Below are positions 13,834 to 51,206 of a stretch of DNA of 64,000 nucleotides, in pieces. The notes under the pieces were generated by a model that worked only from the letters and a program-made list of their open reading frames with translations, was not told where the DNA came from and ran no database searches. Position 1 is the stretch's first letter. The number at the start of each line of letters is the position of its first letter. The DNA comes from Crossaster papposus (Eukaryota > Echinodermata > Asteroidea > Velatida > Solasteridae): assembly GCA_037893245.1 (NCBI GenBank), contig JBAIAA010000441.1:1984001-2048000 (forward strand), given 5' to 3'. The translations under genes were made by a program, and so were the position numbers.

Positions 13834-13839
13834 CCAAGT
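13834..13839 (-). CDS. Cassette microexon, 6 nt (TW)
   Basis: Donor GTAAGTG follows ACTTGG; the nearest upstream AG is in CACGCCAG. The usual acceptor position in this unit reads TTTACAT instead of TTTACAG. Phase 0 gives Thr-Trp. It is extremely short, so use in mRNA is unproven. Confidence 0.4.
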
Positions 13840-14883
13840 CTGGCGTGATGAGCCATGTAAAGAAACAAAACAGAAATGTTAGACAAACATTAATTGATAA
13901 AGTTTAAAAGTGTGTATTAAGGGAATACAAACCAAGAAAATGGCACAGGATTCAACACTTTGTCTTCATCTTACGTCTCAATAAATATATTATTACAAAG
14001 TTTCAACGTTTTCTCCTGGATATTTCTTCCTTTCATCTGGACTTTTTGTTATAATTACAATGACATAATTGTATAAAAAAGTTGAATCTGTAAAATCGCC
14101 CTCCAAGAAAAACGCAAAACTCCGCCGTGTAATGAATTCACGAAAACAGACAGATTGAGTGAAGCAAGGCTTGGGGAAACAGTAATACTCAAAAGTTGTG
14201 TTGTTGTTAAAGGAAATTTGACTGGACTTGCTTTTCTTTGTAAATATCTATTTCTGGCTCAGGAGGTTAACTCCTTTCCTTTTTAAAGTTACACTTTCTT
14301 CCCTTCGCTTGCAATCGGGTGATTTATGAGAGGGAGGGCCAGCCCATTATTATCGTGAGTAAAAGGAACAAAATATCGGAAAAAGCACATTGGGTTCGTT
14401 TTCAGCCCATTCAATTTCAATGAAAGGTAATTGAAAGTAAGTCATACGTAGCTGAACCTCTATGAGTACAAACAGACTATCAAAAACAGACTTTTTTACC
14501 CCGGTAAATATGTTAGGTTTTTGTGCAGCATGAAAATGTTTGGGTTGCAACTTTAAAGCAGTTTGACAGTGAAGTAATTACCATTCGTTTGTATGCATTC
14601 TATAATCGTTTTACAGCAAGACAGGATCCATGAGTGTACTTGACATTTCGGTAAAATTGATTAACACTGTAGTTTAAAGTGGAGTTTGGTCTTGCACGAC
14701 ATTAAGTCAAAAGATATAATATTGCAGCCCTGCAATTGACTTGAACAATGTAAGAGTTTATATGGAACCAATGATTTTCAGGCAGATTTGAACTAATGAA
14801 GAAAAATCGTGTTTCAAAACCGTGAAATACACTTATATGAAATCCGAAGTTAAACAGTAAAGGCGAATCGAATGTACACTTAC

Positions 14884-14895
14884 ATCATCATCAAA
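14884..14895 (-). CDS. Cassette microexon, 12 nt (FDDD)
   Basis: TTTGATGATGAT between CACGCAAG and GTAAGTG. Phase 0 reads Phe-Asp-Asp-Asp. Same shifted acceptor type as 13834-13839 and 19451-19459. Confidence 0.45.
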
Positions 14896-16788
14896 CTTGC
14901 GTGATGAGCCATGTAAAGAAACAAAACAGAAATGTGAGACAAACATTAGTTGATGAAGTTTAATAGTGTGTATTAAGGGAATACAAACCAAGCAAATGGC
15001 ACAGGATTCAACACTTTGTCTTCATCGTACGTCTCAATAAATATACTATTACAAAGTTTCAACGTTTTCTTCTGGATATTTCTTTCTTTCCTTTGGACTT
15101 TTTTATAATTCCAAAGAACCTGTAAAATCGCCCTTCAAAGAAAAAACGCAAAACTCCGCCGTGTAATAAAATCACGAAAACATAAAGATTGAGTGAAGCA
15201 AGGCTTGGGGAAACAGTAATACTCAGAAGTTTTGTTGTTGAAGGGAATTTGACTGGACTTGCTTTTCTTTGTAAAGATATATTTCTGGCTCGGGAGGTTA
15301 ACAAATCTTTTCTTTTTAAAGTTATACTTTCTTCCGATTGCTTGCAATGGGGTGATTTATGAATGCTTCGGTGTGATTTGTAAATTCCAAAATGTGTCTA
15401 TTAGCTGGAGGTGAAATGTAACTGTTCTAGAGTATTATGGTATCTACATGTATACTTCTTGGTGGGTTAAAACAACAAGTAGTAACTTTTACATGACAAA
15501 ATGTTGAACTTAAGATAAAACCTTTTGAGAGGGCTAATTGAGACCTCTTTTGTACTCGTTTGTACGTTTTCGGGTGATCGCCATAAGATTTTCACACGAG
15601 TCGGAATCGGGGACCTTGGCGGAATAGGGGACCCTATTGTCCTCTTTTGTTATACGTCCCCTATTTCAATCAAAAACAAACTCACATGAAATTACACTAT
15701 AAAAAAACGCACCACGATACGATACTGTGGACATTCAGGTACAAAACATGTAGTTAACAACAGCTTGGCTAAGTACTATTTTTTTCTCGCATTCTGAAAA
15801 TGTTTTCAAGCCCAAATTTGGATTCTGATCCACTCAAGTGTCCCCCTTCATTTATACACAAACATGTATAACTCTAACCCCAATTCCCTCTAAAGTTCCT
15901 TTTCAGAGATTGGGAAAGTGACTTTGGATGTGTACTGCATCCATCAGTTGACACATTGTTGTTCACAACTTCTTTCCTTTTTAAAGTTACACTGTCTTCC
16001 CTTCGCGTGCAATTGGGTGATTTATGAGAGGGAGGGCCAGCCCATTATATTATCGTGAGTAAAAGGAACAAAATATCGGGAAAAGCACATTGGGTTCGTT
16101 TTCAGCTCATTCACTTTCAGTAGAATGAAATGGAATGTAAGTCATACGTAGCTAAACTTCTATGAGTAAAAATAAACTATCAAAGACAGGGAAAAAACAC
16201 TAGTTTTTAGTTAAAAACAAGGCAGCTAGTCTGGTTTCCTGACAAAATAATTGATCATGTATTGATCATAATAGTATTACATAGTTGGTTCTATATTCAC
16301 TCATACCTGTATGCAACGAGAACTCAAACATGGCATGGCACAAAGTTGTGATCGTTCTGCCACTTTTCAGAGACCTTTTCCGGTAAATATGTTAGGTTTT
16401 CGTGCAGCATGGAAATGTTTCGGTTGCATCTCTAAAGTAGGTTGACAGTGAATTAATTACAATTCGTTTCTATGCACTCTATAATCGTTTTACAAGACAG
16501 GGTCCATGAGTGTACTTGACATTTATTAACACTGTAGTTTAAAGTAGAGTTTGGTCTTGCACGACATTAAGTCAAAAGCTATAATATTGCAGCCCTGCAA
16601 TTGACTTAAACAATGTAAGAGTTTATATGGAACCAATGATTTTCAGGCAGAGTTAAACTAACGAAGAAATATCGCATATACATGTACACTGATGACAGTA
16701 TACCGACCAGATAATATGGCAAAACCGTGAAATATACGTATATGAACTCCGAAGTTAAACAGTAAAGGCGAATCGAATGTACACTTAC

Positions 16789-16812
16789 CGATGGCCCCGA
16801 ATATAGTGGGCC
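16789..16812 (-). CDS. Cassette microexon, 24 nt (GPLYSGPS)
   Basis: Strong acceptor TTTTGTTTCTTTACAG and donor GTAAGTG bound 24 nt, reading GPLYSGPS in phase 0. This unit keeps the ancestral-looking ACAG acceptor. Confidence 0.6.
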
Positions 16813-17539
16813 CTGTAAAGAAACAAAAGAGATTTTAGAAAAAAATCCATTGATAAAGTTTAATTGTGTGTATACAGGGAATAAAACCCTAGAAAATGGC
16901 ACAGGATTCAACACTTTGTCTTCATCTTACGTCTCAATGGATATATTATTACAAAGTATCAACATTTTCATCTGGATATTTTCTCCTTTCCTATGGATTA
17001 ATTTTGTTTAATTCCAATGACATCATTGTAAAAAGAAGTTGAGTCCTTCAAGAAAAACGCAAAACTCCGCCGTGTAATGAAATCACGAAAACATAAAGAT
17101 TGAGTGAATCAAGGCTTGGAAAACAGTAATACTCAGAAGTTTTGTTGTTTGACTGGACTTGCATTTCTGTGTAAAGATATTTTTTCTGGCTCGGGAGGTT
17201 AACTTCTTTCCTTTTTAAAGTTACACTCTCTTCCTTTCGCTGGCAATTGGGTGATTTATGAATGCTTCGGTTACAACTTAAAAGCAGGTTGACAGTGAAA
17301 TATTTACAAGACACGATCCAGGGATGTACTTGGCACCCAGAGGCTCCTAACATGTATTGACGATTTTGTTATCGAAGCAATTATGTCATTTCCTAACAGG
17401 GACAAATACTTCTGAATTCAGAAATTATGTAAATGCCATAATTAGTGACAGAATATCGACCAGATTATGGCGAAACCGTGAAATAAACTTATATGAACTC
17501 CGAAGTTACAAAGTGAAGTAGAATCGAATGTACACTTAC

Positions 17540-17560
17540 CCGTGACGACATGGGTAGGGG
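17540..17560 (-). CDS. Cassette microexon, 21 nt (PLPMSSR)
   Basis: Acceptor TTTTATTTCTTTACAG and donor GTAAGTG bound 21 nt, reading PLPMSSR in phase 0, a proline- and serine-rich linker with a basic end. Confidence 0.6.
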
Positions 17561-18924
17561 CTGTAAAGAAATAAAAGAGATATGAGAATAACATCATTTA
17601 ATAAAGTTTAATTGTGTGATTACAGAAAAGAAATGTCAAGAAAATGACTTACGATTGAACACTTTTTATTCATCTTACGTCTTCAACTGATACATCATTA
17701 AAACAGATGAGCGAATAATTCTAGACAGAAAATTCCTAAACGCCCAGAGACATTGTGTGTAAACAGACGTATCAAGATAATCTCGATCATTTTGACCAAG
17801 TAACTGTTCTGTATATTATTATGGTATCTACATGTATACTTCTTGGAAGGTTAAAACAACAAGTAGTAACCTATACATAACGAAAGTTTTTGCACCGAGT
17901 CATATCAAGATAATCTCGAAAATTTTGACCCAGCGACATTCGTTGGATGCTGGTAGCATTTTCAGTCAGTCTATGGTTGCCTTGAATCTCAGTAAAATAA
18001 CCGATAAGAAGGGAATGAGCAATAAAAGACAACGCAGACGAACACAATTATGTAGGCCCACTGTATTACAATGTATATTAGGGAGATCACAATTAAATAA
18101 ATACGTATACGTACGTATCCGCGTAATACATAAGATTATTCGATTTGATAAGCCCGATGTTCTTCGACTGTTCTCATCATTAGGACTTTCGAACAACATT
18201 ACGTTCACAAACGGTACAGCGGTAGGAGTTGAGGAGATTTTCACTGTATGAGACGACTAGCATACCATAACCGCCTGAAGGACATTTGACCAACATTTGG
18301 ACGTCTGGTTTTATTTTGGCATGAATTTCAGACTTTATAAAATCCGGACTTATTGGTATAGTTTTGCGCATGACTAAGTGAAGATAATTAGAAGAGTGAC
18401 CGGCCACGTGGGAGGGTTTAACCTGATATTCATATGACACTGGCAAAATGAACTCTCACGAGTGATAAACAAAGTGATTCAACTCCTTTTTGATGACCAT
18501 AATGGAACAGGTTGTCTAATCTGAACCAACCCTGGCCAAACCATGAACAATTGACTCTTTATAACAAATCCGACTAAGATTAATGAACTACGTAGGTATG
18601 TATGCGGTAAAATAAAAAGCGATCGATACTGACGAACAATAGAGCTAAACCACAAGGTAGCCAATCTACAAGGCATCATAAATCAGTATATTTATGAAAT
18701 TAAAAAAACTGATGATTTCATACTTTTGTTGGTATTCCAAGTCAAGCGTCTTAAAATGTTTTCAACATTTGAGTTAAACTTGATTTGAAACACATGCAAC
18801 CACACACATGCGCTTAAGATGACAACTAAGAACGTGTCTTTTTTGTTGGTAAACTGATAGTATGCTTACGTATACACGCACATGCATATAAATCTCAACC
18901 TCTCTAATGACAGCATAATCTTAC

Positions 18925-18945
18925 CCTGTTTTCATCCAGTGACAT
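18925..18945 (-). CDS. Microexon, 21 nt (MSLDENR), outside the repeat unit
   Basis: Acceptor CTTTCATTCCTTTGCAG and donor GTAAGA bound 21 nt, reading MSLDENR in phase 0. Its flanks do not belong to the repeated intron unit, so it may be an original constitutive exon of the gene. Confidence 0.65.
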
Positions 18946-19450
18946 CTGCAAAGGAATGAAAGAGATGTGAACATTACAATAGTAAGAAAACATCTTTAAG
19001 AATATACATTGTTTTTATCTGACGATACAAATAAACTTTATTGTAACCAATAAAACGAAAGTTGGTTCTATTCACTTATACCGATATGCAAAATAAACTT
19101 TGTAAAATATTTATTTCTGGCTAGGGAGGCTAACTTCTTTCCTTTTTAAATTTACACTTTTTAAAGCAGGTTGACAGTAAAATCATTACCATTCGTTTTA
19201 ATGCATTCTATAATCGTTCTACAAGACAGGATCCAGGGATGTACTTGGCACCCAGAGGCTCCTAACATGTATTGACGATTTTATATCGTAGCAACTATGC
19301 CATTTCCTGGCAGGAACACATTCTGAATTTATAAATTATATAAATGCCATAATTAGTGACAGAATATCGACCAGATTATGGCGAAACCGTGAAATAAACT
19401 TATATGAACTCCGAAGTTAAAAAGTAAAGGCGAATCGAATTTACTCTTAC

Positions 19451-19459
19451 CGGATCAAG
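19451..19459 (-). CDS. Cassette microexon, 9 nt (LDP)
   Basis: CTTGATCCG between CACGCAAG and GTAAGAG, phase 0 Leu-Asp-Pro. The normal acceptor position reads ACAT; the used AG would be 15 nt downstream. Confidence 0.45.
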
Positions 19460-20392
19460 CTTGCGTGATGAGCCATGTAAAGAAACAAAACAGAAATGTT
19501 AGAAAAGCATTCATTGATAAAGTTTAATTGTGTGTATACAGGGAAAAAAAACCTAGAAAATGGCACCGGATTCCACAATTTGTCTTCATCTTACGTCTCA
19601 ATGAATATATTATTACAAATTTTCAACGTTTTCTTCTGGATATTTTCTCCTTTCCTATGAATTAATTAATTAATTTCAATGACATAATTGTAAAAAGAAG
19701 TAATGTTGAACCTGTAAAATCCCCCCCCCCAAAAAAAAAAAAAAAAAAAAACCCAAAAAACACCAAACAAACCACCGCAAAATTCCGCCGTTTAATGAAA
19801 TCACAAAAACAGAAAGATTGAGTGAAGCGAGGCTTGGGGAAACAGTAATACTCAGAAGTTTTGTTGTTGTTAAAAGGACATTTGACTGGACTTGCTTTTC
19901 TTTGTAAATATCTATTTCTGGCTCGGGACGTTAACTTCTTTCCTTTTTAAAGTTACACTCTCTTTCTTTCGCTTGCAATTGGGTGATTTATTATTGCTTC
20001 GGTTACAACTTTAAAGCAGGTTGACATCAGTGAAATAATTACAATTTGTTTGTATGCATTCTATAATCGTTTTACAAGACAGGGTCCATTATTGTACTTG
20101 ACACTTCGGTAACATCTATTAACACTGTAGTTTAAAGTGGGGTTTGGTCTTGCACGACATTAAGTCAAAAGATATGATATTGCAGCCCTGCAATATTGAC
20201 TTCAACACTGCAATATTGACTACAACAATGTAAGAGTTTATATGGAACCAATGATTTTCAGGCAGAGTTAAACTAACGAAGAAAAATCTCATATACACTG
20301 ATGACAGTTTATCGACCAGATATAGCAAAACCGTGAAATATACTTATGAACTCTGAAGTTAAACAATGAAGGCGAATCGAATGAGCACTTAC

Positions 20393-20402
20393 CCCTGCAC
20401 CC
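20393..20402 (-). CDS. Cassette microexon candidate, 10 nt, phase-breaking
   Basis: GGGTGCAGGG between CACGCAG and GTAAGTG is 10 nt and would shift the frame. An internal GTGCAG would leave a 3-nt exon instead. It is the single exception to the multiple-of-three pattern and may be dead, skipped, or a poison exon. Confidence 0.3.
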
Positions 20403-21056
20403 CTGCGTGACTGATGAGCCATGTAAAGAAACAAAACAGAAATGTTAGACAAACATTAATTGATAAAGTTTAAAAGTGTGTATTAAGGGAATACAAACCA
20501 AGAAAATGGCACAGGATTCAACACTTTGTCTTCATCTTACGTCTCAATAAATATATACTATTACAAAGTTTCAACGTTTTCTTCTGGATATTTCCTCCTT
20601 TCCTCTGGATTTTTTATATAATTCCAATGATATAATTGTATAAAGAAGTTAAATCTGTGAAATCGCAATGCAAGAAAAACGCAAAACTCTGCCGTGTAAT
20701 GGAATCACGAAAACAGAAAGATTGAGTGAAGCAAGTCTTGAGGGAACAGTAATACTCATTTTAAAACATTTTGTATACAATTTCACCAACATTTTGGTAA
20801 AATTGAATAACACTGTTGTTTAAAGTGGAGTTTGGTCTTGCACGACATTAAGTCAAAAGATATAATATTGCAGCCCTGCAATTGACTTCAACAATGTAAG
20901 AGTTTATATGAAACCAATGATTTTCAGGCAGAGTTAAACTAACGATGACAAATCGCATATACACGGATGACAGTATATCGACCAGATATGGCAAAAACGT
21001 GAAATATACTTGAACTCGGAAGTTAAACAGTGAAGGCGAATCGAATGTACACTTAC

Positions 21057-21080
21057 CAATGACTCCGGATCTATTCCGCC
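21057..21080 (-). CDS. Cassette microexon, 24 nt (GGIDPESL)
   Basis: Acceptor TTTTGTTTCTTTACAG and donor GTAAGTG bound 24 nt, reading GGIDPESL in phase 0. It aligns position by position with the 24-nt exon at 16789-16812 while flanking introns are more similar than the exons. Confidence 0.6.
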
Positions 21081-21845
21081 CTGTAAAGAAACAAAAGAGA
21101 TTTTAGAAAAACATTATTTGAAAATGTTTAATTGTGTGTATAACGGAAATAAATACCACAAAAATGGCACAGGATTGAACACTTTGTATTCATATTTCGT
21201 CTTCAACTGATACTTCATTAAAACAGATGAGGGAATAATTATAGACAGAAAACTCCCTAATTGCCAGAGACATTATGTGTAGCCTAGTATGAGAAAGTTT
21301 TGTGTGTACAAAAGTTCAGTGAAGTCTGTGCCATTAAATGTGCTTGATCGTGTTTAACTCTAGCGAACCTATGCAAAGCTGACAATCAATCAAATCGCAG
21401 TATAAGTACTAACTAATATCTACCGTACCACTTGGGGGCGCACTTTTTAGAGCTATTTTAATCTCTGGGTTCGGATTTGTCTTCGTCTTAGGATCAAGGG
21501 GATTTTAGCGTACTGCGAGAACTCCAGCCACATTCTGGTGCCTGTTGTGCTTTAGAAACATTCAACCAGTTGATATGAACCTATACAAAGGTCGGATATT
21601 TCTATTTCCTTCATTTCTATTTACTTCTCAGTGATTCCGAAGTCGCAGGCGAACCGAAGCCTAACACGCTAAGCAAAGGTTTAAGTACGCGTAGCAGACG
21701 ACCAAATGCGCGGCGCAAGAGATCTTTGCCCGAACATTTCACTTGCATTTTAATAGTGGTTGTTCATTCATTTTATCATAACTGAACATTTTATTCTTCA
21801 CTTCCATCACACAGAAACAATAACGAATAACTTCAGTTGGCCGTC

Positions 21846-21960
21846 AATTAAGACTACAACCCACAATCGGATCGCAGCACATCTCAACAGAGGTGGTGTT
21901 TGTCTTGTCCAAGGTTGATCCCGTTCACCACGATTTGATGCGATCTGTCGTTATAATGTC
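21846..21960. repeat. Direct duplicate of 22855-22965
   Basis: The block from AAGACTACAACCCACAATCGG through GGTTGATCCCGTTCACCACG occurs here and again at 22855-22965. The second copy lies downstream of a TATA box inside the inverted-repeat element. Confidence 0.8.
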
Positions 21961-22794
21961 GAACATTTTGACCAAGCGACATTCGTTTGATGTTGGTGAG
22001 AGTTTCTCTCAGTCTTGGTTGCTTTGAACCTCGGTAAAATAATGTAAAATCGCCCTCCGAGAAAAACGCAAAACTCCGCTGTGTAATGAAATCACGAAAA
22101 CAGAAATATTGAGTGAAGCAAGGCTTGGGAAAACAGTAATACTCATTTTTAAACATTATTTTTCGTAAAACGGCGCTCATGGTGCTTTTGCATACACAAC
22201 TAAAAATATAACTGCCCGCAAGCAGAATATAGCAAATACACTATGCGAGTTCTACAATGTTGCACACTGATCTATTCAGCATGAACAAAGAAGTTTAAAG
22301 CTCAAATAGCCTCTCTAAATAAAAGGGTCTTTAGCTTTTGCTTATGCTAGGTTCCCACTGTCGTGCGGTCCGTTACGAACGCCACGACTGGCCATTCGTA
22401 GCTGATCGTGGAAGTTTCGTTTTCTTTTCTGAAATTTCACGTTTTGATGTTTTGAGTTGATGCGAGTCGATACGATCTGGTACGATTTGGTGCGCTTGGA
22501 TGCGATATAGTCACGATTGGTCAATTTCAAGTGTCGCGATCTGGTCTTCCGTTCAGATACGATCAGATACGTTCCGATAGAATTGTCCCGATTGAGTCCT
22601 TGATTGGGTCCCGATCTGACACGATCAGCACAATCGGGATCCCCGATTTGGGACGATCTGGTACGTTCCGATACGTTCCGATACGATCATCATGAACTGA
22701 TGCGCTCTGTTGCGATCACATATGATTGTGGTCGCGATGTCTTTCACGATCGGGATCGAGAGTGATCACGATTTGAGCCACGGTTGGATCCCGA

Positions 22795-22860
22795 CGGGTA
22801 TATATACAGCCCGACTGACCATGGACTTCATTGTTTCTTGAACTTCTACAGAGTGAAGAC
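22795..22860 (+). promoter_or_regulatory. TATA-type promoter inside the inverted-repeat element
   Basis: GGTATATATACAGCCCGACTG, with a plausible start region and ATG at 22821, followed by the duplicated block beginning at 22855. Prediction from motif only. Confidence 0.4.
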
Positions 22861-23479: not shown

Positions 23480-23530
23480 ATAGGTATAAAAAGGCCCTCA
23501 TCCCTGCTTGGGCATCAGTTCCAAAATGGA
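23480..23530 (+). promoter_or_regulatory. Second TATA-type promoter and short ATG leader
   Basis: GGTATAAAAAGGCCCTCATC, with ATGGATGTTCAACGTACCTG 40 nt downstream at 23527. The arrangement (TATA, about 30 bp, leader, ATG) parallels the one at 22795. No extended product follows. Confidence 0.4.
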
Positions 23531-23842: not shown

Positions 23843-23912
23843 GACAAATTACACAAAACTTTATACCCACATAGAGGCACAAATTACACAAAATTTTCTA
23901 CCCACATAGAGG
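23843..23912. repeat. 35-bp tandem duplication in LINE 3' region
   Basis: ACAAATTACACAAAACTTTA with CCCACATAGAGGC occurs twice in a row with small differences. It lies between the ORF2 stop and the presumed 3' end of the LINE. Confidence 0.7.
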
Positions 23913-24110: not shown

Positions 24111-27068
24111 CTAGTATTGACTTAGAACATTATCTTTAAACTCCTTTGCAAACACTTTCAAACTGGTGGTGTTTTTAAGTTTTCTGTCTAATTTATTCCA
24201 AAGGAGAACACCCCGAGTTTTTAAGCTTTGTTTTGCAAGCGATGTTCTGCGGTAATGTATATAAAGATCACCTTTTGATGCACCACGAGTACTGTATGAG
24301 TGAACAGATGAAGACATTGTGAATATGTTGTTGAAGTTTGGAGGCAGCATTCGATGGTTGTACTTAAACATAAATTTACCCAAGTTAAGATTGTATAAAT
24401 CTTTAAACTTAAGTACTCTCAGTTTTGAAAACAAAGGAGAGGTATGTGCCAAATAATCGGCCTTTGTAATTATTCTAACTGCTCTCTTCTGTAAAAGAAA
24501 GAGTTTCTGACACTGAGTGCTTGAGCTGCCCCATAATAGGATTCCGTAGTTAAGATATGATAGAATAAGGGAATTATAAATTATTAAAAGAATATCGGAG
24601 GGCAAAAAGAACTTCAACCTATTCATAACGCCAATATTTTTGGATATTTTGTTGGACAAAGTTTCTATCTGCTTGTTCCACATTAGGTTTTCATCAATAT
24701 ATATTCCAAGAAATTTGGTATTTTTAACTTGATTAATGGTTTCACCATTTATAATGACAGATTTTCTGCATACATATTTATTTTGTCTACAACTAAATAT
24801 AATATAATTTGTTTTTGATAAGTTGACTGAAAGTTTATTACATAAAAGCCATTTATTTACTTTAACAAGTTCTTGGTTTATCGTCTCTACAGCAACATTA
24901 GCGTCATGGTGGTTATGAAGTAAATTGGTGTCGTCAGCAAAAAGGCAGAATGAAATTATATTACTTGACTTGCAGATGTCGTTCATGTAAATGATAAACA
25001 ACAGTGGCCCTAGAACAGATCCCTGAGGAACTCCGCGTGTTATTACATCTTGCATTGAACTCGTATTGTTGTAGGCCTATGTTACAAATTGCATTTTATT
25101 TGATAAATAGCTTCGAAACCACTGTAATGTTACACCACGAACACCAATGTAAGCTAACTTATGGATTAAAATATTATGATTGACAGTATCAAATGCTTTT
25201 GACAAGTCTAAAAATACGCCAATGGATACTTGTTTATTTTCTATAGCATTGATAATTTGATTTACTACACTTATTATTGCTAATTCAGTAGATCGTTTAC
25301 TTCTGAAACCATATTGTGAACTTGATAGTAATCCATATTTTTCGATAAAGCATAATAATCGACTATGAATCAGCTTTTCAAAGACTTTAGAAAACACAGG
25401 TAGAATGGAGATTGGTCTATAATTGCTAATATCGTGTTGATTACCTTTTTTATATACTGGTACCACCTTACCTATTTTCAGTCTGTTTGGGAAAACCCCT
25501 GTCGTAATAGATGTATTAAAAATTAAGGCTAATGGTTTGACTAAAGCACTATTTGCCTCTTTAGTAATAATAGATGATATACCATCCCATCCTGGCGCTT
25601 TATCAGAGGCAAGATTACAGATAATTGAAGATATTTCATCTTCAGTAATTGGATTTAGGAATAGAGAATGTGGGCATCTGTCATCAAGAAACGATTCAAA
25701 GCATTAATCACACGTCTGAAGTTCACTTGCAATCTTATTACCAACATTAACAAAATAATTATTAAAAGTATTCGAAATATCAAGATCGTTGTCTATTTTG
25801 TTACCATCTTTAACAAAATAAGTTGGAACCGATTTGTTTTTAGATTTACATAATAATGAATTAATTAGTTTCCAAGTATTTTTGTGGTTACTTTTTTCTT
25901 TATTAAACTGAGTTTCTAAGTACTTCTTTTTTGCACTTCGTATTACTTTAGTAAGCATGTTTTTATATTGTACATAAGTCATTTTGTTTTCTGCTGTGGG
26001 TCTTTTGAGATAGTTTTTATACTTGTAATTCTTTTGCCTGATAGAATTAAAAATTCCCTTATTTATCCATGGTGATTAATTTTTGTTTAAAGTAGTTTTA
26101 TTATGACTTAGAGGAAAATCCCTTTCATAGAAGTTTAGAAATATGTCTAAGAACATATTATAGCTAGTATCAACATTATCTGAGCTCAGCACATGATCCC
26201 AGTCAGTACCGTTAAGGTCCCGAATAAAACGTTGGATGTTAGCTATATTGAAGTCTCGTTTTGGTTTGTTTATTTGGTTTGTACCTTTTTCTTTACATTG
26301 ATCAATCGTCATAAACACTGGTAAGTGGTCACTTATATCAGTGAGTAATATTCCTGATTTATGACTAAGCATGTCATTGGTGAAGATGTTATCTATTAGC
26401 GTTGCGCTTTCCCTTGTGATTCTTGTGGGTTTATTAATTAAAGGATAAAAGGGATGTGAAGATAGGATTTCAATAACAGTTTGAACATTACTATCTGTGT
26501 CATAGTGAAGTAGATTCATATTAAAGTCTCCCATTAAATAACATTTTTTATTAATATTACTTGTTTTGTTACGTATGTCATCAAAGGCATCTAAAAACTG
26601 GGTATATGAAGTATTAGGGGGTCTATATATTACCCCCACTATAAATGAGCTGCCATTGGTGCTTTCGATTTCAATGAAACTTGATTCTATTTCTGTCGAG
26701 TTAATACATAAATCTACTCGAGTTTTATAAGTACAATTATCTCTTATGTATAATGCGACCCCACCGCCTCGCTTATTTTGTCTACAAGAGCCTTCTAATA
26801 CATAGCCTGGAATTTTTATTAAAGTATCGTCAAGATCTTTTAGCCAAGTTTCTGATATTCCGATGATGGAGAAGTTGGTTTTTAAGAGAGATAGATAATA
26901 TCTCAATTGATCAATATTTTTGGCGAGACTCCTTGCGTTAACATGTAGTAATTTGAAGTCCTTATTAGTGACAAATTTATGAACGAATTGATCTTGATCA
27001 TAATACTCGCAGGATATATTGGGAAGGTTTAGGTTGTCATCTGGATCTATATCCGTAGTGTGTATCAT
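24111..27068 (-). pseudogene. LINE ORF2: endonuclease and reverse transcriptase with three in-frame stops
   Basis: 986 codons remain in one frame from 27068 to the TGA/TAA-type end at 24111, broken only by TAA at 26076-26078, TAA at 25704-25706 and TAG at 25077-25079. The N-terminal part is an AP-type endonuclease (LLHVNARSL, GISETWL, GVIYRPPN, GDFNMNLL, SDHLPVFMT). The middle links through SPWINKGIFNSIRQ. RT motifs include APGWDGISS, NYRPISILPVFSKVFEKL, LDLSKAFDTVNH, GVPQGSVLGPLLF and the catalytic FADDT. There are no frameshifts, so inactivation is recent. The C-terminal end lacks an RNase H. Confidence 0.9.
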
Positions 27069-29125: not shown

Positions 29126-29141
<16 letters not shown>

Positions 29142-30552: not shown

Positions 30553-30583
<31 letters not shown>

Positions 30584-40800: not shown

Positions 40801-42357
40801 GGCCCTTGAAGAAATTTGGCACGATTGCGTCATTCAAGGTCACGTGACGTGACGTTAAAAGTGCAATTTTTTCACCCATAGGGTTTGTACACGTTTTTCT
40901 TCAGACTATTGACTTTGACACTTTCGTAAATCCGATCGACTTGAGACTTGGCATACACTTAGACCAGCATCCCTAGGAGGGCAAGGAGAAAAATCGTCCC
41001 GATGACGTCATCGTGGGTCATGTGACGTCATATTAAAGGTGCAGTGTTTAAGACCCTCTGTCTCCGTAAGTACAGGTTCGATTGGGGTCGAACTTAGTAT
41101 ACAGGTATTCCGGGACGTGTTATAGACGGAAATAAAGGTGACGCCATGATGACGTCATCAGGTGTCATGTGACGTTAAATTAAAGGTGTAGTTTCCCCAA
41201 TAGGATTTGTACACGTTTTTTTCAACCAATATATATTTGGCACTTTGGTAAATCCGATCGACTTCAGACTTGGTACACACATAGACCACCACCCACATTA
41301 TTCAAAGTCATTTCAGACACGCGAAACAGCTCTGTGTTTGTCCACAAACACATTTCTAGTTTTTTTAGCTGTTTCGGTTTTCCACCGAAACAGCTTTTGT
41401 TTTCGTTAAAGTTTTTTTAGCTGTTTCGGCAATTCAGCCGAAACAGCTATTGTATTCGTTCTGATTTTTTTTTTTTTTTTTTTTTTTCTCCTTCAGACTC
41501 TTCTCCATAGGGTTTGTACACGTTTTTTGTTCGGACAATACACTTTGGCACTTTGGTAAATCCGATCGACTTGAGACTTGGCCTACTCTTAGACCACCAC
41601 CCACAGATGATCCTAGAAGAAATTTGTCACGATTACGTCATTCGTGGTCACGTGACGTCACGTTAAAGGTGCAATTTTTCCCCATAGGATTTGTACACGT
41701 TTTTCTTCAGAATATTGAATTTGACACTTCGGTGAATCCGATCGACTTGAGACTTAAGACACACCTCGACCACCATCCCCAGAGGGGCCAGAAGAAAAAT
41801 CGCCATGATGACGTCATCGTGGGTCATTTGACGTCACATTAAAGGTGCAGTTTATAAGACCCTCTATCTCTGGAAGTAAAGGTCTGATTGGGGTCAAACT
41901 TGGTATGCAAGTATTCCAGGATTTGTTATAGACGAAAATTAAGATGACATGATGACGTCATCGGGTGTCATGTGACGTCACATTAAAGGTGCAGTTTATA
42001 AGACCCTCTATCTCTGGAAGTAAAGGTCTGATTGGGGTCAAACTTGGTATGCAAGTATTCCAGGATGTGTTATAGACGGAAATTAAGATGACGTCATGAC
42101 GACGTCATCGTGGGCCATGTGACGTCACGTTAAAGGTGCAGTTTTTCCCATAGGATTTGTACACGTTTTTTGCAACCAAGATATATTTGGCACTTGGGTA
42201 AATCCGATCGACTTCAGATTTGGTACACACATAGACCACCACTCACATATTCAAAGTCATTTTTAGACAAGCGAAACAGCTCTGTGTTTGTCCACAAACA
42301 CATTTCTAGTTTTTAGCTGTTTCGGTTTTTCACCGAAACAGCTTTTGTTTTCGTTAA

Positions 42358-42405
<48 letters not shown>

Positions 42406-45400
42406 CCTCTTTCAGACTTTTCCCCATAGGATTTGTACACGTTTTTTCTGGCATAGCACTTTGACACTTTAGTAAATGCGATCGACTTGAGACTTGGCAT
42501 ACATTTAGACAACCACCCAAGGACGGTCCTAGAAGAAATTCGTCGCGATTACGTCATTCAAGGTCACGTGACGTCATGTTAAAGGTAACATTTTCCCCAT
42601 AGGTTTTGTACACGTTTTTCTTTAGACTCTTGACTTTGACACTTTGGTATATCCGATCGACTTGAAACTTAGTATACACTTAGAACACCACCCACAGATG
42701 GCTCTTGAAGAAATTCGGTACGATTGCGTCATTCAAGGTCACGTGACGTGACGTTAAAGGTGCAATTTTTTTTCCAATAGGGTTTGTACACGTTTTTCTT
42801 CAGACTATTGACTTTGACACTTTCGTAGACTTGATCGACTTGAGACTTAGCACAGACCTCGACCGCCATCCTTAGGAGGGCCAAGAGAAAAATAATCAAC
42901 ATGACGTCATCGCGGGTCATGTGACGTCACATTAAATGTGTAATTTTTAAGACCCTCTAACTCTAAAAGTACAAGTCCGGTTGGGGTCAAACTTGGTTTG
43001 CAAGTATTCGAGGATGTGTTATAGACGAAAATTAAGATGACGTAATTATGACATCATCGGGTGTCATGTGACGTCACATTAAATGTTCAATTTTCTCCAT
43101 AGGTTTTGTACACGTTTTTCTTCAGACTATTGAATTTGACAATTTGGTAAATCCGATCGACTTCAGACTTAGCACACACCTCGACACCATACCCAGGAGG
43201 GCCAAGGGGAAAATCGTCAGGATAACGTCATCGTGGGTCATGTGACGTCACATTAAAGGGGCAGATTTTAGGACCCTCTATCTCTGGAAGTACAGGTCCG
43301 ATTGGGGTCAAACTTAGTATTCATGTATTCCAGGATGAGTTATAGACAAAAATTAGATGACATTATGATGGCGTCATCGGGTGTCATGTGACGTCACATT
43401 AAAGGTTCAGTTTGTAGGACCCTCTATCTCTGGAAGTACAGGTCCGATTGGGGTCAAACTTGGTATTCATGTATTCCAGGATGAGTTATAGACACAAATT
43501 AAGATGACATTATGATGACGTCATCGGGTGTCATGTGACGTCACATTAAAGGTGCAATTTTTAGGACCCTCTATCTCTGGAAGTACAGGCCCGATTGGGG
43601 TTAAACTTGGTATGCAAGCATTCCAGGATGTGTTACAGACGAAAATTAAGATGAGATCATGATGACATCATCGGGTATCATGTGACATCACATTAAAGGT
43701 GCAGTTTTTCCTATAGGATTTGTACATGTTTTTTTCAACCAACAATATTTTTGGCACTTGGTAAATCCGATCGACTTCAGACTTGGCACACACTTAGACC
43801 ACCACACAAATATTGAAAGTCAATTTTAAAAACCCGAAACAGCTCTGTGTTTGTCCACAAACACATGTCTAGTTTTTTTGGTTTTTTTTCCACTTTCAGT
43901 GTTTTTACCCATAGGATTTACACACGTTTGTTCTGCCAATACACTTTGGCACTTTGGTGAATCCAATCGACCCGAGACTTGGTATACACTTAGACCTCCA
44001 CCCACAGATGGTCCTAGAAGAAATTTGGCTCGATTGCGTCATTCAAGGTCACGTGACGTCACGTTAAAGGTTTAATTTTCCCCATAGGTTTTGTACACGT
44101 TTTTCTTCAGACTATTGACTTTGGCACTTCGGTAAATCCGACCGACTTAAAACTTGGCATACACTTAGAACACCACCCCCAGATGTTTCTGAAATAAATT
44201 CGGCACGATTGCGTCATTCAAGGTCACGTGACGTCACATTAAAGGTTCACATTTTTCTCCCATTGGTTTTGTACACGTTTTTGTTTAGACTATTGACTTT
44301 GACACTTTAGTAAATCCGATCGACTTGAGACTTGGCACATACTTAGACCACCATCCACAGACGGCCCTAGAAGAAATTCGGCACGATTACGTCATTCAAG
44401 GTCACGGGGCGTCACGTTAAATTTTCTATTTTTTCCCATAGGTTTTGTACACGTTTTTCTTTAGACTATTGCCTTTGACACTTTAGTAAATCTGATCGAC
44501 TTGAGACTTGGCACACACAAAAGACCACCACACACATATTGAAAGTAATTTTAGACACTCGAAACAGCTCTGTGTTTGTCCACAAACACATGTCTAGTTT
44601 TTTTTTTTTTTCCTTTTTTTTTTTTTTTCCACTTTCAGTGTTTTTACCTATAGGATTTACACACGTTTGTTCTGCCAATACACTTTGGCACTTTGGTGAT
44701 TCCAATCGACTTGAGACTTGCTGTACACTTAGACCTCCACCCACAGATGGTCCTAGAAGAAATTTGGCTCGATTGCGTCATTCAAGGTCACGTGACGTCA
44801 CTTTAAAGGTTTAATTTTCCCCATAGGTTTTGTACACGTTTTTCTTCAGACTATTGACTTTGGCACTTCGGTAAATCCGACCGACTTAAAACTTAGCATA
44901 CACTTATAACACCACCCCCAGATGTTTCTGAAAGAACTTCGGCACGATTGTGTCATTCAAGGTCACGTGACGTCACATTAAAGGTTCACATTTTTCTCCC
45001 ATTGGTTTTGTATACGTTTTTCTTTAGACTATTGACTTTAACACTTTAGTACATCCGATCGACTTGAGACTTGGCACACACTTAGACCACCATCCACAGA
45101 CGGCCCTAGAAGAAATTCGGCACGATTACGTCATTCAAGGTCACGGGGCGTCACGTTAAAGTTTCAATTGTTTCCCATAGGTTTTGTACACGTTTTTCTT
45201 TAGACTATTGCCTTTGACACTTTAGTAAATCTGATCGACTTGAGACTTGGCACACACAAAAGACCACCACACACATATTGAAAGTAATTTTAGACACTCG
45301 AAACAGCTCTGTGTTTGTCCACAAACACATGTCTAGTCTTTTTTTTCTTTTCCTTCTTCAGACTTTTCCCCATAGGATTTGTACACGTTTTTTCTGGCAT

Positions 45401-46082
45401 AGCACTTTGACACTTTAGTAAATCCGATCGACTTGAAACTTGGCATACATTTAGACAACCACCCAAAGACGGTCCTAGAAGAAATTCGTCGCGATTACGT
45501 CATTCAAGGTCACGTTATTTGACGTGAAATGTGAAATTTTTCCCATAGGGTTTGTACACGTTTTTCTTCAGACTATTGACTTTGACACTTTGGTAAATCC
45601 GACCGACTTGAAACTTGGCATACACTTAGAACCCCACTCCCAGATGTCCCTGAAAGAAATTCGGCACAATTGCGTCTTTCAAGGTCACGTGGCATGACGT
45701 TAAAGGTTCACATTTTTTTCCCATTGGTTTTGTACACGTTTTTCTTTAGACATTGCCCTTGACACTTTAGTAAATCTGATCGACTTGAGACTTGGCACAC
45801 ACATAGACCACCACACACACATATTGAAAGTAACGTTAGACAATCGAAACAGCTCTGTGTTTGTCCACAAACACATGTCTAGTTTGTTTGTTTGTTGTTG
45901 TTTTTTTTTTTTTTTGGGGGGGGGTCACAATTGTTTGTCTAATGGTATGAGCATATCAATAGACCTTACATAGATACACACACTAAATATTGAAGCATTC
46001 TGGCATACCAAACAGCCACGGTTGCACTAGGGTGCTCACGCGGAAGGCATATGTGTAATATGTATATAGAACTGATTTCACA

Positions 46083-46280
46083 GGACTCGATTGAAGGGTA
46101 AACGAACTCTGTTTCAAACGAGCTTTTACAGCCCATACGGGTTGAATACAGGCATAGTTAGAAAAACAATTCAGCGGAAGTGGCCGAAAGATGTCGTAGT
46201 TATACACGCAAACAATCTGAGGGCTGGATTGAAGGGTGAACGAACTCTGTTTCAAACATGCTTTTACATCCTATACGGGT
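46083..46280. repeat. Direct duplication of about 50 bp
   Basis: GATTGAAGGGTAAACGAACTC with TGTTTCAAACGAGCTTTTAC at 46089 recurs with small changes at 46227. No coding role is supported. Confidence 0.6.
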
Positions 46281-46291
46281 GATATACAAGG

Positions 46292-46853
46292 TTAACCTCC
46301 ACCCGTGACGTCACCCTATTGTCCTACCCCTCCATTATTTTGAACGAATGGAGCGTTGGAGGCGATATCTCTCCATTATTTTGGGAAGGTAACGCAAGTG
46401 AACAAAGAGGAAGTCACTGAAACTAACCAGTGTAGCGGTTTTCGTTGTATTTTTTTAGAAACCTATGTACTCCAATCCGATTTCCCCTTCAATCTTGTTC
46501 TATGGTTAAACTAACTCATACGAAAATGTGTCGAAGAAAAAGACAAACATTATCGATAGTCGGATTCGAACCACAGACCTTTCGATCCATAGCTCTCCTC
46601 TCTACCAACTATGCTATTGACGAGTTGGTGAAAGAAGCCGTTCTTTATAATTCTTTATAGTTATTTAATGTATATGATTTGCCATTGCTCTTTCTCATGA
46701 ATATTTTAATTACGAACCACCCAGCTCCTGAAAAAAAAAATCACGAACCGCTGCACCGGTTAGTATTAAGTGTCTTCTGAACAAAGACGCTCCATTCGTT
46801 CAAAATAATGGAGCGGTAGGACAATAGGTGGCGACGTCCCGGGTGGAGGTTAA
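46292..46853. mobile_element. TTAA-flanked inverted-repeat element carrying a tRNA-like segment
   Basis: Inverted ends of about 60 bp (CCTCCACCCG, then CTATTGTCCTACC and CTCCATTATTTTGAACGAAT) sit between TTAA copies at 46292-46295 and 46850-46853, fitting a piggyBac-type MITE. On the minus strand, 46550-46620 holds TAGTTGGTAGAG (A-box-like) and GGTTCGAATCC (B box), so a tRNA-like SINE or pseudo-tRNA lies inside. Confidence 0.75.
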
Positions 46854-46856
46854 GTC

Positions 46857-46960
46857 GGTTAATACCCTCGGTAACGCGCCATTCGTTGGTAATAATGTCC
46901 CTCGGGCTTCGCCCTCGGGCCATTATTACCAACGAATGGCGCGTACCTCGGGCATTATCC
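46857..46960. repeat. Hairpin with CCTCGG-type loop
   Basis: Arms GGTAACGCGCCATTCGTTGG and TAATAATG pair across the loop CCCTCGGGCTTCGCCCTCGGG, flanked by CCCTCGG on the left and ACCTCGGGC on the right. It is almost perfectly palindromic and abuts the preceding TTAA element. Confidence 0.85.
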
Positions 46961-47434
46961 TATACATAGTTTACAAAAACCGGAATTGCCCATTTTTTTT
47001 CAAGGTTATACACAAAGGTATCAAAACTTGCCTCACGAGTGAGCCCCTGCATGTGTGACACCCGCCTTACCAGTCAAAGCTTTGAAATTCGTGCTAGTTA
47101 GGGCGGAGTAGGGCCTACAAAATACTAATGACTACGGCCTAAACACATCGTTTCGACAGGCCCGGAATTATCATGCGCAGTAGCATGCGCACAAACTAAG
47201 TGGCAGGATGAACATAAGTGTATGTCTGACTGAGATATATAGACAGCTGTACCCTCCAAAGAAATAAAACTTAAAATAAAATAAAAGTTGTCCTTACATA
47301 TACGTCGTCGGAATGGCCTTGATTGCGTCATACATCCATAACACCCCAGACTTACTTCGCAAGCTCGAAAGAATCAACATGCCATATATACACCCCTTTC
47401 AATACACAGAGGCGGTCCTTTTTGCAAATCCGGG

Positions 47435-47870
47435 GTAGCATGAATTTCAGACTTTATGAAATCCAAACTCATTTGTAGTAGTGCGCACGATTAAGTGGAT
47501 ATAATTAGGAGCGTGATCTGTCACGTGATAGGGTTTAAGCAATAATATGAAAAAAGGTCTGATTTCCATAGGAATCTGATTTTCATATGACACCAGCCTT
47601 TCAAAGGGATTTAAGAACAGTCGTCTAGACAACACGTCTGGTTAGATGATACTTATTGTACGTAGCCCATGGTGATACGCAATTGCTTGTCACTTGATAG
47701 TGGACTACCAACACCGTGTTCCAATAACTATTCCAAAAGCAAATCTTCTGCAGGCTGTAGGCCTATCTGCCATTCTAAAGATTATTAATTACTTACCCGT
47801 AAAAAAGCATTGACCATGTAATTTCAAGATGGAAAATATGCTTCATAATTATATAGACATTCTATTGTAG
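47435..47870. repeat. Segmental duplicate of 13170-13560
   Basis: Counterpart of the block at 13170-13560; together with the following small-exon units it marks an ancient duplication of intron material on either side of the mobile-element block. Confidence 0.8.
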
Positions 47871-47936
47871 CGAGTCTTTGAAACAAATTATTGAATCTAA
47901 GACAAGTTTGCAAAAGAATGCGAATTGTACACTTAC

Positions 47937-47966
47937 CTCAGTCGATGGCCGTCGGCGTCCGCCCAC
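47937..47966 (-). CDS. Microexon, 30 nt (VGGRRRPSTE)
   Basis: Acceptor TTTCATTTTCTTAATACAG and donor GTAAGTG bound 30 nt, reading VGGRRRPSTE in phase 0. It is basic and has possible phosphorylation residues next to an Arg triplet. Its 3' intron flank resembles the repeat unit's donor side but the acceptor side differs. Confidence 0.65.
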
Positions 47967-48424
47967 CTGTATTAAGAAAATGAAACAGGTGGCAAAAAAC
48001 ATTAATTGTAAAGTGTTGTTATACAATCGTAAGCATTAAGAAAACCATACTGGGATAATATCATTGGAATTGACAGTTTGTAATGTAATTACCTAATTTA
48101 GACTTCATTTTGAACCTAGGTTGACAGTGAAATAATTACCATTCGTGTATATGCATTCTATAATCGTTTTACAAGACAGGATCTATGAGTTTACTTGACA
48201 TTTCGGTAGCATTAAGTCAAACGAATTAATATCACAGCCCTGCAATTAACTTCAACAATGTAAGAGTTTATATGAAACCAATGATTTTCAGGCAGAGTTA
48301 AACTAACGAAGAAAAATCGCATATACACTGATAACAGTATATCGACCAGATATGGCAAAACCGTGAAATAAACTTATATGAACTTCGAAGTTAAACAGTA
48401 AAGGCAAATCGAATGTACACTTAC

Positions 48425-48433
48425 ACATCCCAC
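48425..48433 (-). CDS. Cassette microexon, 9 nt (VGC)
   Basis: GTGGGATGT between TTCGGCAAG and GTAAGTG; phase 0 Val-Gly-Cys. The usual acceptor position reads GCAT. Confidence 0.45.
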
Positions 48434-49079
48434 CTTGCCGAATAAGACATGCAAAGAAACAAAAGAGATGTTAGAAAAACTTTAATTGATAAAGTTTAAT
48501 AGTGTGTATAAAGGGAATACAAACCAAGACAATGGCACAGGATTCAATAATTTGTCTTCATCTTACGTCTCAATGGATATATTATTACAAAGTTTCAACG
48601 TTTTCGTCTGGATATTTTCTCCTTTCCTATGAATTAATTTTGTTTAATTCCAATGACATAATTGAAAAAAAAAGTTAAATCTGTGAAATCGCAATCCAAG
48701 AAAAACGCTAAACTCTGCCGTGTAATGAAATCACAAAAACAGAAAGATTGAGCGAAGCAAGTCTTGAGGGAACAGTATTACTCATTTTAAAACATTTTTT
48801 ATACAATTTCAGCAACATTTTGGTAAAATTGAATAACAGTGTAGTTTAAAGTGGAGTTTGGTCTTGCACGACATTAAGTCAAAAGATATAATATTGCAGC
48901 CCTGCAATTGACTTCAACACTGTAAGAGTTTATTTGGAACCAATGATTTTCAGGCAGAGTTAAACTAACGAAAATATTTTGCATAATCACTGATTACAGT
49001 ATATCGACCAGATGGAAAACCGTCAAATATACTTTAACTTCGAAGTTAAACAGTGAAGGCAAATCAAATGTACACTTAC

Positions 49080-49088
49080 CATTTCCCA
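49080..49088 (-). CDS. Cassette microexon, 9 nt (WEM)
   Basis: TGGGAAATG between TTCGGCAAAG and GTAAGTG; phase 0 Trp-Glu-Met. This copy has one extra base, but it falls before the shifted acceptor, so the 9-nt exon stays in frame. Confidence 0.45.
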
Positions 49089-51197
49089 CTTTGCCGAATA
49101 AGACATGTAAAGAAACAAAAGAGATGTTAGAAAAACATTAATTGATAAAGTTTAATAGTGTGTATATAAAAGGAAAACAAACCAAGAAAATGGCACAGGA
49201 TTCAACACTTTGTCTTTATCTTACGTCTGAATGGATATATTATTACAAAGTTTCAACGTTTTCAACTGGATATTTTCTCTTTTCCTATGGATTAATTTTG
49301 TTTAATTTCAATGAAATAATTGTAAAAAGAAGGTAAACCTGTAAAATCGCCCCCCCCCCAAAAAAAAAAAAACAACCCAAAAAACCCAAAACACCGCAAA
49401 ACTCCGCCGTGTAATGAAATCATTAGTGAAGCAAGTAATAATCAGTGTTGTTGTTGTTAAAAGAAATTTGACTGGACTTGCTTTTCTTTGTAAATATCTA
49501 TTTCTGGCTCGGGAGGTTAACTTGTTTCTTTTTTAAAGTTAACTTTCTTTCTTTCGCTTGCAATATTGGGTGATTTATGAATGTTTCGGTAACAACTTTA
49601 GAGCAGGTTGACAGTGAAATCATTACCATTATTTTAAATGAATTCTAGAATCGCTCTACAAGACAGGATCCAGAGGGTGTACTTGGCATCAGAAAGGCAT
49701 CCATTTACACCATAAACAAACGCGCGCACACATACATACGATACTGTGGACATTCAGGTACAAAACATGTAGTTAACAACACTTTGGCTAGTAAGTACTA
49801 TAAATGTTTTTAACCCCAAATTTGGATTCTGGTCCACTCAAGTGCCCCCCTTCATTTGTACACAAACATGTATAACTCTAACCCCAATTCCCTCTAAAGT
49901 TCCTTTTCAGAGAGTGGGAAACTGACTTTGGATGTGTACTGCATCCATCAGTTGACACATTGTTGTTCACATGTCAGGTATGGAATAATTCTAGACAGAA
50001 AACTCCTCATCGCCCAGAGACATTGTGTGTAAACAGTCGTATCAAGATAATCTCGATCATTTTGACCCAGCGACATTCGTTGGATGTTGGTAGCATTTTC
50101 ACTGAGTCTGTAGTTATTTTGAATCTCAGTACATGTATATCAACTACATTGATACCCCTCAAACCAATGTTTTGATGCGAATAGAAAACAAAATAAAAGA
50201 ATAGTGGGAAAACGTATTTGACAAGCGTAGACAAATAAATACCATAATAATAATACGACTGAACGAACACAACAAAACAAGGGTGGCAACTTGCAATCAA
50301 CGACACTCAAATTATCTCTATTATAGTATTGATCAAATTAGATGGTGTATTTTATTTAGTCTCGGCCCCGGACGCCCATACATACACACGGACGCTCACC
50401 ACAGGGTTCCTATAGTCAGAGAGGGAGGGCCAGCCCATAATTATTATCATGAGTAAAAGGAACAAAATATCGGAAAAGCACATTGGGTTCGTTTTCAGCT
50501 CATTCAATTTCAATGGAAGGTAATTGAAAGTAAGTCATACGTAGCTGAACCTCTATGAGCAAAAACAAACTATCAAATACAGGAGAAACAAGTACTAGTT
50601 TTTAGTTACAAACAAGGCAGTTAGTCTGGTTTTCCTGACAAAATAATTGATCGTGTATTGATCATAATAGTATTACATAGTTGGTTCTATATTCACTCAT
50701 ACCTGTATGCAACAAGAACTTAAACATGGCATGGTACAAAGTCGTTAACACAAAATTAAAAGTCGTTCTGCCACTCTTCAGATTGTTTTCCCGGTAAAAA
50801 TGTTCGGTTTTTGTGCAGCCTGGAAATGTTTCGGTTGCAACTTTAAAGCAGGTTCACAGTGAAGTAATTACCATTCGTTTCTATGCATTCTATAATCGTT
50901 TTACAAGACAGGATCCATGAGTGTACTTGACATTTCGGTACAATTAATTAACACTGTGGTTAAAAATGGAGTTTGGTCTTGCACGACATTAAGTCAGAAG
51001 ATTTAATATTGCAGCCCTGTAAATTGACTTCAACACTGTAAGAGTTTATATGGAACCGATGATTTTCAGGCAGAGTTAAACTAACGAAGAAAAATCGCAT
51101 ATACACTGATGACAGTATACCGACCAGATATGGAAAACCGCGAAACATACTTGAACTTTGAAGTTAAACAGTGAAGGCGAATCGAATGTACACTTAC

Positions 51198-51206
51198 CTC
51201 CATGTC
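51198..51206 (-). CDS. Cassette microexon, 9 nt (DME)
   Basis: GACATGGAG between TTCGGCAAG and GTAAGTG; phase 0 Asp-Met-Glu. It is the first cassette after the transmembrane exon in transcript order. Confidence 0.45.

Follow-up and report, generated by a model that had tools for sequence, protein, structure and literature searches.

Most of what is known about microexons concerns conserved neuronal cassettes, and in the neural programme of the SRRM4 type a UGC motif is located just upstream of the acceptor. Netrin receptors of the UNC5 type typically have an Ig/TSP1 ectodomain, and the caspase-3 site of UNC5H lies between the membrane and ZU5. The FIIND is composed of ZU5-UPA, and the diversity of NLRP1 and CARD8 arises by substitution and not by exon arrays. 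Many tiny exons are found in the nank (NACHT-ankyrin) NLR family of the truffle Tuber melanosporum, for which the work of Iotti et al. from 2012 is said to be the source study. The nank microexons are reported to be codon-sized (3 bp) and alternatively spliced (PMC4986451, PMC10197012). The micro-exon genes (MEGs) of schistosomes are described as genes of high variability with many short exons (3-36 bp) each, which encode small secreted proteins (7-20 kDa) and of which up to 75% can be microexonic (PMC10399815). According to reviews, vertebrate UNC5H has an in vitro caspase-3 site at residue 412, which is required for killing and the use of which releases the downstream part with the death domain (PMC2361483, PMC8573599). 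NLRP1 is activated by viral proteases cutting a rapidly evolving linker, which in human NLRP1 sits between the PYD and the NLR domain (PMC7857732). Here we describe a receptor gene of the sea star Crossaster papposus, which reads on the minus strand of a stretch of 64,000 nucleotides (nt), referred to as the window (assembly GCA_037893245.1, contig JBAIAA010000441.1, positions 1,984,001 to 2,048,000; position 1 is the first letter of the stretch). Twelve candidate microexons lie in its 42-kb intron, which extends from the exon with the candidate transmembrane (TM) helix to the short exon ETSFAITAEKSVNLQSSP preceding the ZU5 exon (ZU5-N exon). Judged from the sequence, these microexons are likely, with a probability of roughly 0.8, to be genuine and translated, and to form a tandem array that diversifying selection has made hypervariable and that belongs to an expanded family of membrane ZU5-(UPA)-Death receptor genes.

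The twelve candidates listed in a preliminary description of this DNA were all found again at their places on the minus strand, each with an AG before it and with either GTAAGT (ten) or GTAAGA (two) as donor. Ten of them are copies of one tandem unit family of about 0.6 kb, consisting of intron flank, microexon and intron flank. On both sides of the exon, the flanks can be aligned with those of other units for hundreds of bases, in most cases at 73-87% identity, and the exons differ. Only shorter pieces are in common between the units and the surroundings of the two remaining exons, MSLDENR and VGGRRRPSTE, and for the latter these pieces are short and do not adjoin the exon. The introns between units have a median length of about 1.2 kb (82 measured). 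In-frame microexon candidates are more frequent in the 42-kb intron than expected by chance: a scan for a strong acceptor and a donor 6-36 nt apart, using weights set by hand, gave seven strong candidates on the gene strand, five of them open multiples of three, compared to two and none, respectively, on the opposite strand and to a mean of 1.6 candidates with 0.46 +/- 0.65 (maximum 2) open multiples of three in 100 dinucleotide shuffles. The microexons outside this strong set share duplicated units with the strong ones, as their flanks align over hundreds of bases.

The same arrangement recurs in a whole family of genes. One unit of the window matches at least 78 stretches of the 1.02-Gb genome (40 of 364 candidates scored), all located on the contigs C441, C315, C536, and C591, and the same four contigs carry at least 26 copies of the ZU5 exon including that of the window, which are 91-100% identical and some of which may be alleles; the copy numbers of units and ZU5 exons are both lower bounds. 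Seven genes are in hand with both the TM and the ZU5-N exon, and in all seven every unit found lies between these two exons and on the gene strand. Phase 0 was seen at the end of the TM exon in 7/7 genes and at the start of the ZU5-N exon in 10/10 genes, and also in the window the phase is set by the flanking large exons, as had been proposed, with the exon at 12910 starting in phase 0 like the TM exon ends. The seven genes with both flanking exons harbor between 1 and 17 intact microexons each, from which linkers of 7 to 106 residues are predicted if every intact exon is used. These linkers vary in content and order among paralogs whose ZU5 stays 91-100% identical. The earlier proposal of a tandemly amplified in-frame array, located in a death-domain receptor gene from the membrane helix to ZU5, is supported: the array recurs in paralogs, and its codon-level evolution, outlined below, indicates translation. 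The partly fetched gene G2082 (C441:2082001-2092000) additionally has two inverted units. They were considered as a non-spliced control and are unusable for this purpose, as each of the two is an open 9-mer and a different gene may own them. Remote ZU5 relatives with about 41-45% identity form a second group on C344, C401, C836, C197, C864, and C288, several of its members on C344; on these contigs no match to the microexon unit was present among the candidates scored (40 of 364). Seven predictions from Patiria miniata are the closest proteins found. UniRef names five of these Netrin receptor UNC5, and the best-scoring one is 50% identical; a second protein search found an Acanthaster relative.

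Across this family, the reading frame is kept. An exon was taken to begin after the first AG that follows the last pyrimidine motif and to run up to the homologous GT donor; the fallback was TTTACAG plus 15-31 nt. The loci L003 and L006, to which all 54 reverse-strand hits belong, were excluded, and L001, L004, L005, and L007 coincide in part with loci that had been counted before. The first set comprised 131 sites, or 128 after omission of three at locus edges. Six further sites were not counted (acceptor AG lost in one, donor lost in one, one truncated, and three of the MSSSSGF type without acceptor), leaving 122 exons, of which 121 were used in the analyses of selection and signals, as one more lies too close to the locus end. 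Their lengths are 21 nt (42 exons), 24 nt (31), 9 nt (29), 18 nt (10), 12 nt (4), 27 nt (3), 6 nt (2), and 30 nt (1), so that 122/122 are multiples of three. None of the 80 distinct exons has a stop codon in phase 0, compared to 9/80 and 17/80 in sense frames 1 and 2 and to 31, 8, and 5 in the antisense frames. A prediction test on six further stretches gave an exon at 13 of 14 sites, with all 13 being open multiples of three, six of them new sequences; the site without exon is a copy of the MSSSSGF type. In the first and the prediction set together, 135 of 142 homologous donor sites yield a microexon, all 135 with a length that is a multiple of three, and 85 of the exons are distinct, each with a peptide of its own and none with a stop in phase 0. 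Of 239 distinct gap runs in the flank alignments only 74 have a length divisible by three, so that the repeats as such do not account for the exon lengths. Two broken units were noticed at C441:1609365 and C315:1040160, one of which has lost the acceptor AG and the other one the donor GT.

For the window itself, eleven candidates had been reported as open and as multiples of three, which stands, next to a 10-nt exception, which does not. The latter, at 20393-20402 according to its place in the list, extends to 20410 when read from the first AG past the pyrimidine tract. Since it is then 18 nt long (SRRGAG), all twelve microexons of the window are in frame. Its paralogs SRIGAQ, SHMHAW, and SHMRAW use the same TCATCAG acceptor, and SHNYVQ uses CACCAG. 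A different 10-nt candidate at 50409-50400 was rejected, as its flanks match another repeat and not the units.

The splice signals of the units are strong. The last match to a branch-point-like motif usually lies 23-25 nt upstream in case of the 24-nt exons, 23 nt for the 21-nt exons, 35 nt for the 18-nt exons, and 38-40 nt for the 9-nt exons. These distances fit an acceptor that moved to the next AG where TTTACAG became TTTACAT, a shift by which 15 nt are lost without a change of frame (GSSRKIAH versus IAL). A neural-type UGC signal is rare, with TGC within 25 nt upstream in 6/121 units, and in this respect the units do not resemble SRRM4-type microexons. As every called unit is a phase-0 cassette, any subset of exons would keep the frame, and alternative exon sets could thus produce many linkers per gene in a Dscam- or MEG-like manner, for which the schistosome MEGs (PMC10399815) and the truffle NLR microexons (PMC4986451, PMC10197012) are precedents with reported alternative splicing. 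However, 111 of the 122 first-set units have the donor GTAAGT, which is near consensus, and such strong splice sites fit efficient constitutive inclusion, so that combinatorial use of the exons appears possible at less than even odds.

Three exon families can be aligned: family A (the last three codons), family B (proline-rich, 21 nt), and family C (GPLxxGPS, 24 nt). In family A (41 units, 34 of them distinct with flank) the divergence is 0.667 at replacement sites (pN), 0.280 at synonymous sites (pS), and 0.093 in the adjacent intron, with a pN/pIntron of 7.1 (5.1-10.0) and a pN/pS of 2.4 (1.9-3.1), and the peptides are near saturation. Family B (37 units, 28 distinct) has a pN of 0.380, a pS of 0.176, and an intron divergence of 0.222, giving a pN/pS of 2.15 (1.8-2.8); all of these intervals are too narrow, because the bootstrap resamples units of shared ancestry. 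For family A, the pN/pS of 2.40 is seen only in phase 0 and is 0.88 and 0.71 in the shifted frames. Exon divergence in this family grows with flank divergence, from 0.044 at 0.009 to 0.126 at 0.032, 0.42 at 0.054, and 0.55 at 0.070, followed by a plateau, and it is therefore fast substitution that changes the exons. The cleanest test is provided by 37 disjoint pairs of units with a flank difference below 6%, pairs with identical flanks being skipped. They differ at 48/518 replacement sites, 7/199 synonymous sites, and 297/14457 flank sites (replacement versus synonymous p = 0.008, replacement versus flank p = 1e-16, synonymous versus flank p = 0.20). Replacement change is thus about 4.5-fold that of the flank in the close pairs and 7-fold in family A. 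The splice junctions mark a step up in variability. Third codon positions are less variable than first and second positions in families A and B; as weaker evidence, a permutation test of this phase asymmetry over the three families gave p = 0.0225, which is only modest because family C shows no asymmetry. The large exons are constrained in the same gene family, with a pN/pS of 0.43 for the ZU5 exon (10 genes) and of 0.66 for the TM exon (7 genes). The sequence pattern of the microexons of the two larger families A and B is best read as the result of diversifying selection.

Several points weigh against this reading. The multiples of three are not independent, since the units derive from one another and alleles may be present among the loci, and separate changes of length within the frame can be seen in just a handful of cases. 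In family B the pN/pIntron is 1.7 (0.99-4.2), and in family C (21 units, 15 distinct), with a pN of 0.124, a pS of 0.113, and an intron divergence of 0.157, no replacement excess is found. The pN/pS values are built on few synonymous sites, as only seven such changes occur in the 37 close pairs. In family A, pS exceeds the intron divergence, which leaves some room for a locally raised mutation rate; this concern is eased by the close pairs, in which synonymous change is not significantly above that of the flank. The 30-nt exon of the window lacks a homolog among the fetched paralogs. The annotated Patiria homolog P0001 has merely a short, ordinary linker, so that the array is either unannotated or absent in Patiria, and a protein search with the linker peptides, based on words of five residues and on proteins of 0.55-1.75 times the query length, gave no match with E <= 10 among 1255 candidates. 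Taken together, the array and the frame put forward in the preliminary description stood up to the analysis, and what it had missed is the shared unit family, the hypervariability, and the gene family.

It can be assumed that an intronic unit of about 0.6 kb with one short phase-0 exon was repeatedly duplicated in the TM-to-ZU5 intron, that the units retained strong splice signals, and that the codons of the two larger exon families were driven to change. From the codon-level evolution we infer that the microexons are translated. The spliced product would then be a juxtamembrane linker of variable short peptides that leads from the membrane helix to the death-signalling module, and the domain order suggests its location on the cytosolic side. 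The linker peptides might act as baits or short linear motifs, and outside factors or partners that change fast would control ZU5-UPA-Death by contacting or cleaving them, a role that we infer by analogy with the UNC5H caspase site and the fast-evolving linker of NLRP1. By the same analogy, we favour an explanation in which the peptides may be contacted or cut by fast-changing outside factors or may give paralogs private partners.

The two functional possibilities within reach can be weighed separately. If variable juxtamembrane motifs provided each paralog or isoform with a private partner and thereby separated their signalling, no pathogen would be needed; a conserved ZU5 combined with linkers of different content and order would be in line with this, and proline-rich, charged or tyrosine-bearing peptides could serve as short linear motifs. 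However, the replacement excess is already present at less than 6% flank difference, which is more typical of continuing conflict than of a one-off specialisation, and such an insulation of adaptors is in our view somewhat unlikely. A functional special case of the favoured explanation is that the linker imitates sites at which enzymes of pathogens cleave or dock, and that a cut frees ZU5-UPA-Death from the membrane and triggers death signalling. The position of the linker ahead of this module, the diversifying selection in a stretch upstream of the effector part and on the presumed cytosolic side, the released death-domain part of UNC5H (PMC2361483, PMC8573599), and the activation of NLRP1 by cleavage in its rapidly evolving linker (PMC7857732) would all agree with a sensor of this kind. 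It is nevertheless unlikely as a full account, as the human NLRP1 linker does not adjoin a ZU5-type module and as the proline-rich family B resembles docking motifs equally well. The far-reaching version, an innate-immune family with germline-amplified microexon baits that are perhaps spliced in combinations and act as interchangeable tripwires for pathogen proteases or effectors, releasing or activating ZU5-UPA-Death, seems quite doubtful. That the exons are spliced in and that the linker is just a neutral, disordered tether would suit the range of linker lengths from 7 to 106 residues and the lack of a replacement excess in family C, but neutral change would equal the intron divergence and not surpass it 4.5- to 7-fold, which makes a relaxed spacer improbable. 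Finally, tandem duplicates do occur in introns, and the high pS of family A would allow for a locally hypermutable core, but ordinary duplicates of this kind that only resemble exons are very unlikely in view of the jump of variation at the splice junctions, the less variable third positions (families A and B; p = 0.02 for the three families), zero stops in 85 distinct exons, a pN/pS excess in phase 0 only, and exon lengths but not flank gaps in multiples of three.

With diversifying selection as the preferred reading, the microexons of this family look like a rapidly diversifying, tandemly amplified substrate of positive selection, situated presumably on the cytosolic side. Should this be confirmed, an invertebrate would have a route of its own to receptor diversity, in which fast substitution is restricted to tiny exons and in which the duplication of a self-contained intron-exon-intron unit adds one in-frame peptide per event. 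Gene predictors may well overlook such linkers.

Table 1. Exons of the receptor gene in the window, in the order of transcription.
Feature	Position	Strand	Remarks
TM exon, Cys-rich and hydrophobic stretch	54770..55108	-	ends in phase 0, RIKTVC followed by gtgagt
Microexon 1, DME	51198..51206	-	9 nt
Microexon 2, WEM	49080..49088	-	9 nt
Microexon 3, VGC	48425..48433	-	9 nt
Microexon 4, VGGRRRPSTE	47937..47966	-	30 nt
Microexon 5, GGIDPESL	21057..21080	-	24 nt
Microexon 6, SRRGAG	20393..20410	-	18 nt, corrected from 10 nt
Microexon 7, LDP	19451..19459	-	9 nt, family A
Microexon 8, MSLDENR	18925..18945	-	21 nt, separate unit type; homolog MLMDTPM in gene G1386
Microexon 9, PLPMSSR	17540..17560	-	21 nt, proline-rich family B
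Microexon 10, GPLYSGPS	16789..16812	-	24 nt, family C
Microexon 11, FDDD	14884..14895	-	12 nt, family A; peptide identical in two paralogs
Microexon 12, TW	13834..13839	-	6 nt, family A
ZU5-N exon	12856..12910	-	acceptor in phase 0
ZU5 exon	11197..11855	-	PF00791, E 8e-18
Coding exon after ZU5	9425..9554	-	ends approximate; alignment with Patiria P0001
Coding exon, UPA region	5882..6064	-	ends approximate; alignment with UPA region of Patiria P0001
Coding exon between UPA and Death	2962..3258	-	ends approximate
Death-domain exon	2268..2543	-	ends approximate; PF00531, E 2.5e-13, profile match over 2217-2543

Within the TM exon, which is 52.6% identical to residues 1-100 of Patiria P0001, the hydrophobic stretch GVPGFIAIVAAVVLVFLLVATFCYCLW was read by eye as the candidate transmembrane helix. 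The UPA match of P0001 itself reaches 19.5 bits and is thus under the Pfam cut-off of 27, and a Pfam scan of ten open reading frames of the window gave no family over its cut-off. For the Patiria homolog, the AlphaFold2 model has a mean predicted local distance difference test (pLDDT) value of 32. In Patiria P0004, several near-repeats of a motif of about 20 residues (ELSAIGPKDA) were seen by eye in the predicted region before ZU5, given which the amplification of short exons in this linker may be older or recurrent. A retroelement of the non-LTR (long terminal repeat) type at 24111-27068 on the minus strand, with endonuclease and reverse-transcriptase matches and a frame broken by stops, sits in the 26.9-kb gap that divides the microexon array into two. 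A tRNA-like stretch at about 12990-13060 (minus strand), perhaps a remnant of a short interspersed nuclear element, lies just upstream of the ZU5-N exon, and a fold-back repeat at about 52190-53060 contains one stretch in two near-complementary copies, both seen by eye. Long minisatellites with translations of the AGWL and VGTGPR type flank the gene region at 55244-55880 and 6515-7257.

Literature searches on microexons (tandem and hypervariable, with positive selection in immune receptors, or in echinoderms) as well as on sea star ZU5/death-domain genes and the expansion of echinoderm UNC5 gave no title on such a system in the library searched. That the array is without precedent, as suggested in the preliminary description, has to be narrowed accordingly: diversification by microexons is known from truffle nank, and the schistosome MEGs are a second precedent. 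The device itself is thus known, namely a diversifying family whose genes have numerous tiny exons in frame. What did not turn up in the literature searched is the tandem unit, diversifying selection that was measured, and an animal death-domain receptor as the setting. The NLRP1 and CARD8 sensors also have a rapidly evolving stretch upstream of a death-fold effector part, which in these sensors is cut by proteases; they are, however, intracellular and without membrane anchor, and the NLRP1 linker does not adjoin a ZU5-type module. The order of candidate TM helix, linker, ZU5, putative UPA region, and Death is shared with the UNC5 netrin receptors, and the Cys-rich stretch in the TM exon, the multi-copy expansion, and the microexon array are different. 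Dscam arrays also consist of tandemly duplicated exons for alternative protein segments; these exons exclude each other and code for portions of Ig domains, whereas the exons here encode 2-10 residues each. With the MEGs, the gene family shares a high variability and numerous tiny exons in one gene, with 6-30 nt falling into the MEG range of 3-36 bp, but here the microexons are confined to a single intron, and the receptor gene around it has large conserved exons for TM, ZU5, and Death. Truffle nank is similar in being an expanded family of receptor-type genes that uses many tiny in-frame exons as a diversification device; it comprises fungal intracellular NLRs with NACHT and ankyrin domains and 3-bp exons in the sensor part, whereas the present family consists of animal membrane receptors with ZU5 and Death domains, whose exons of 6-30 nt lie in the juxtamembrane linker on tandem units of about 0.6 kb and whose hypervariability could be gauged against the flanking introns.

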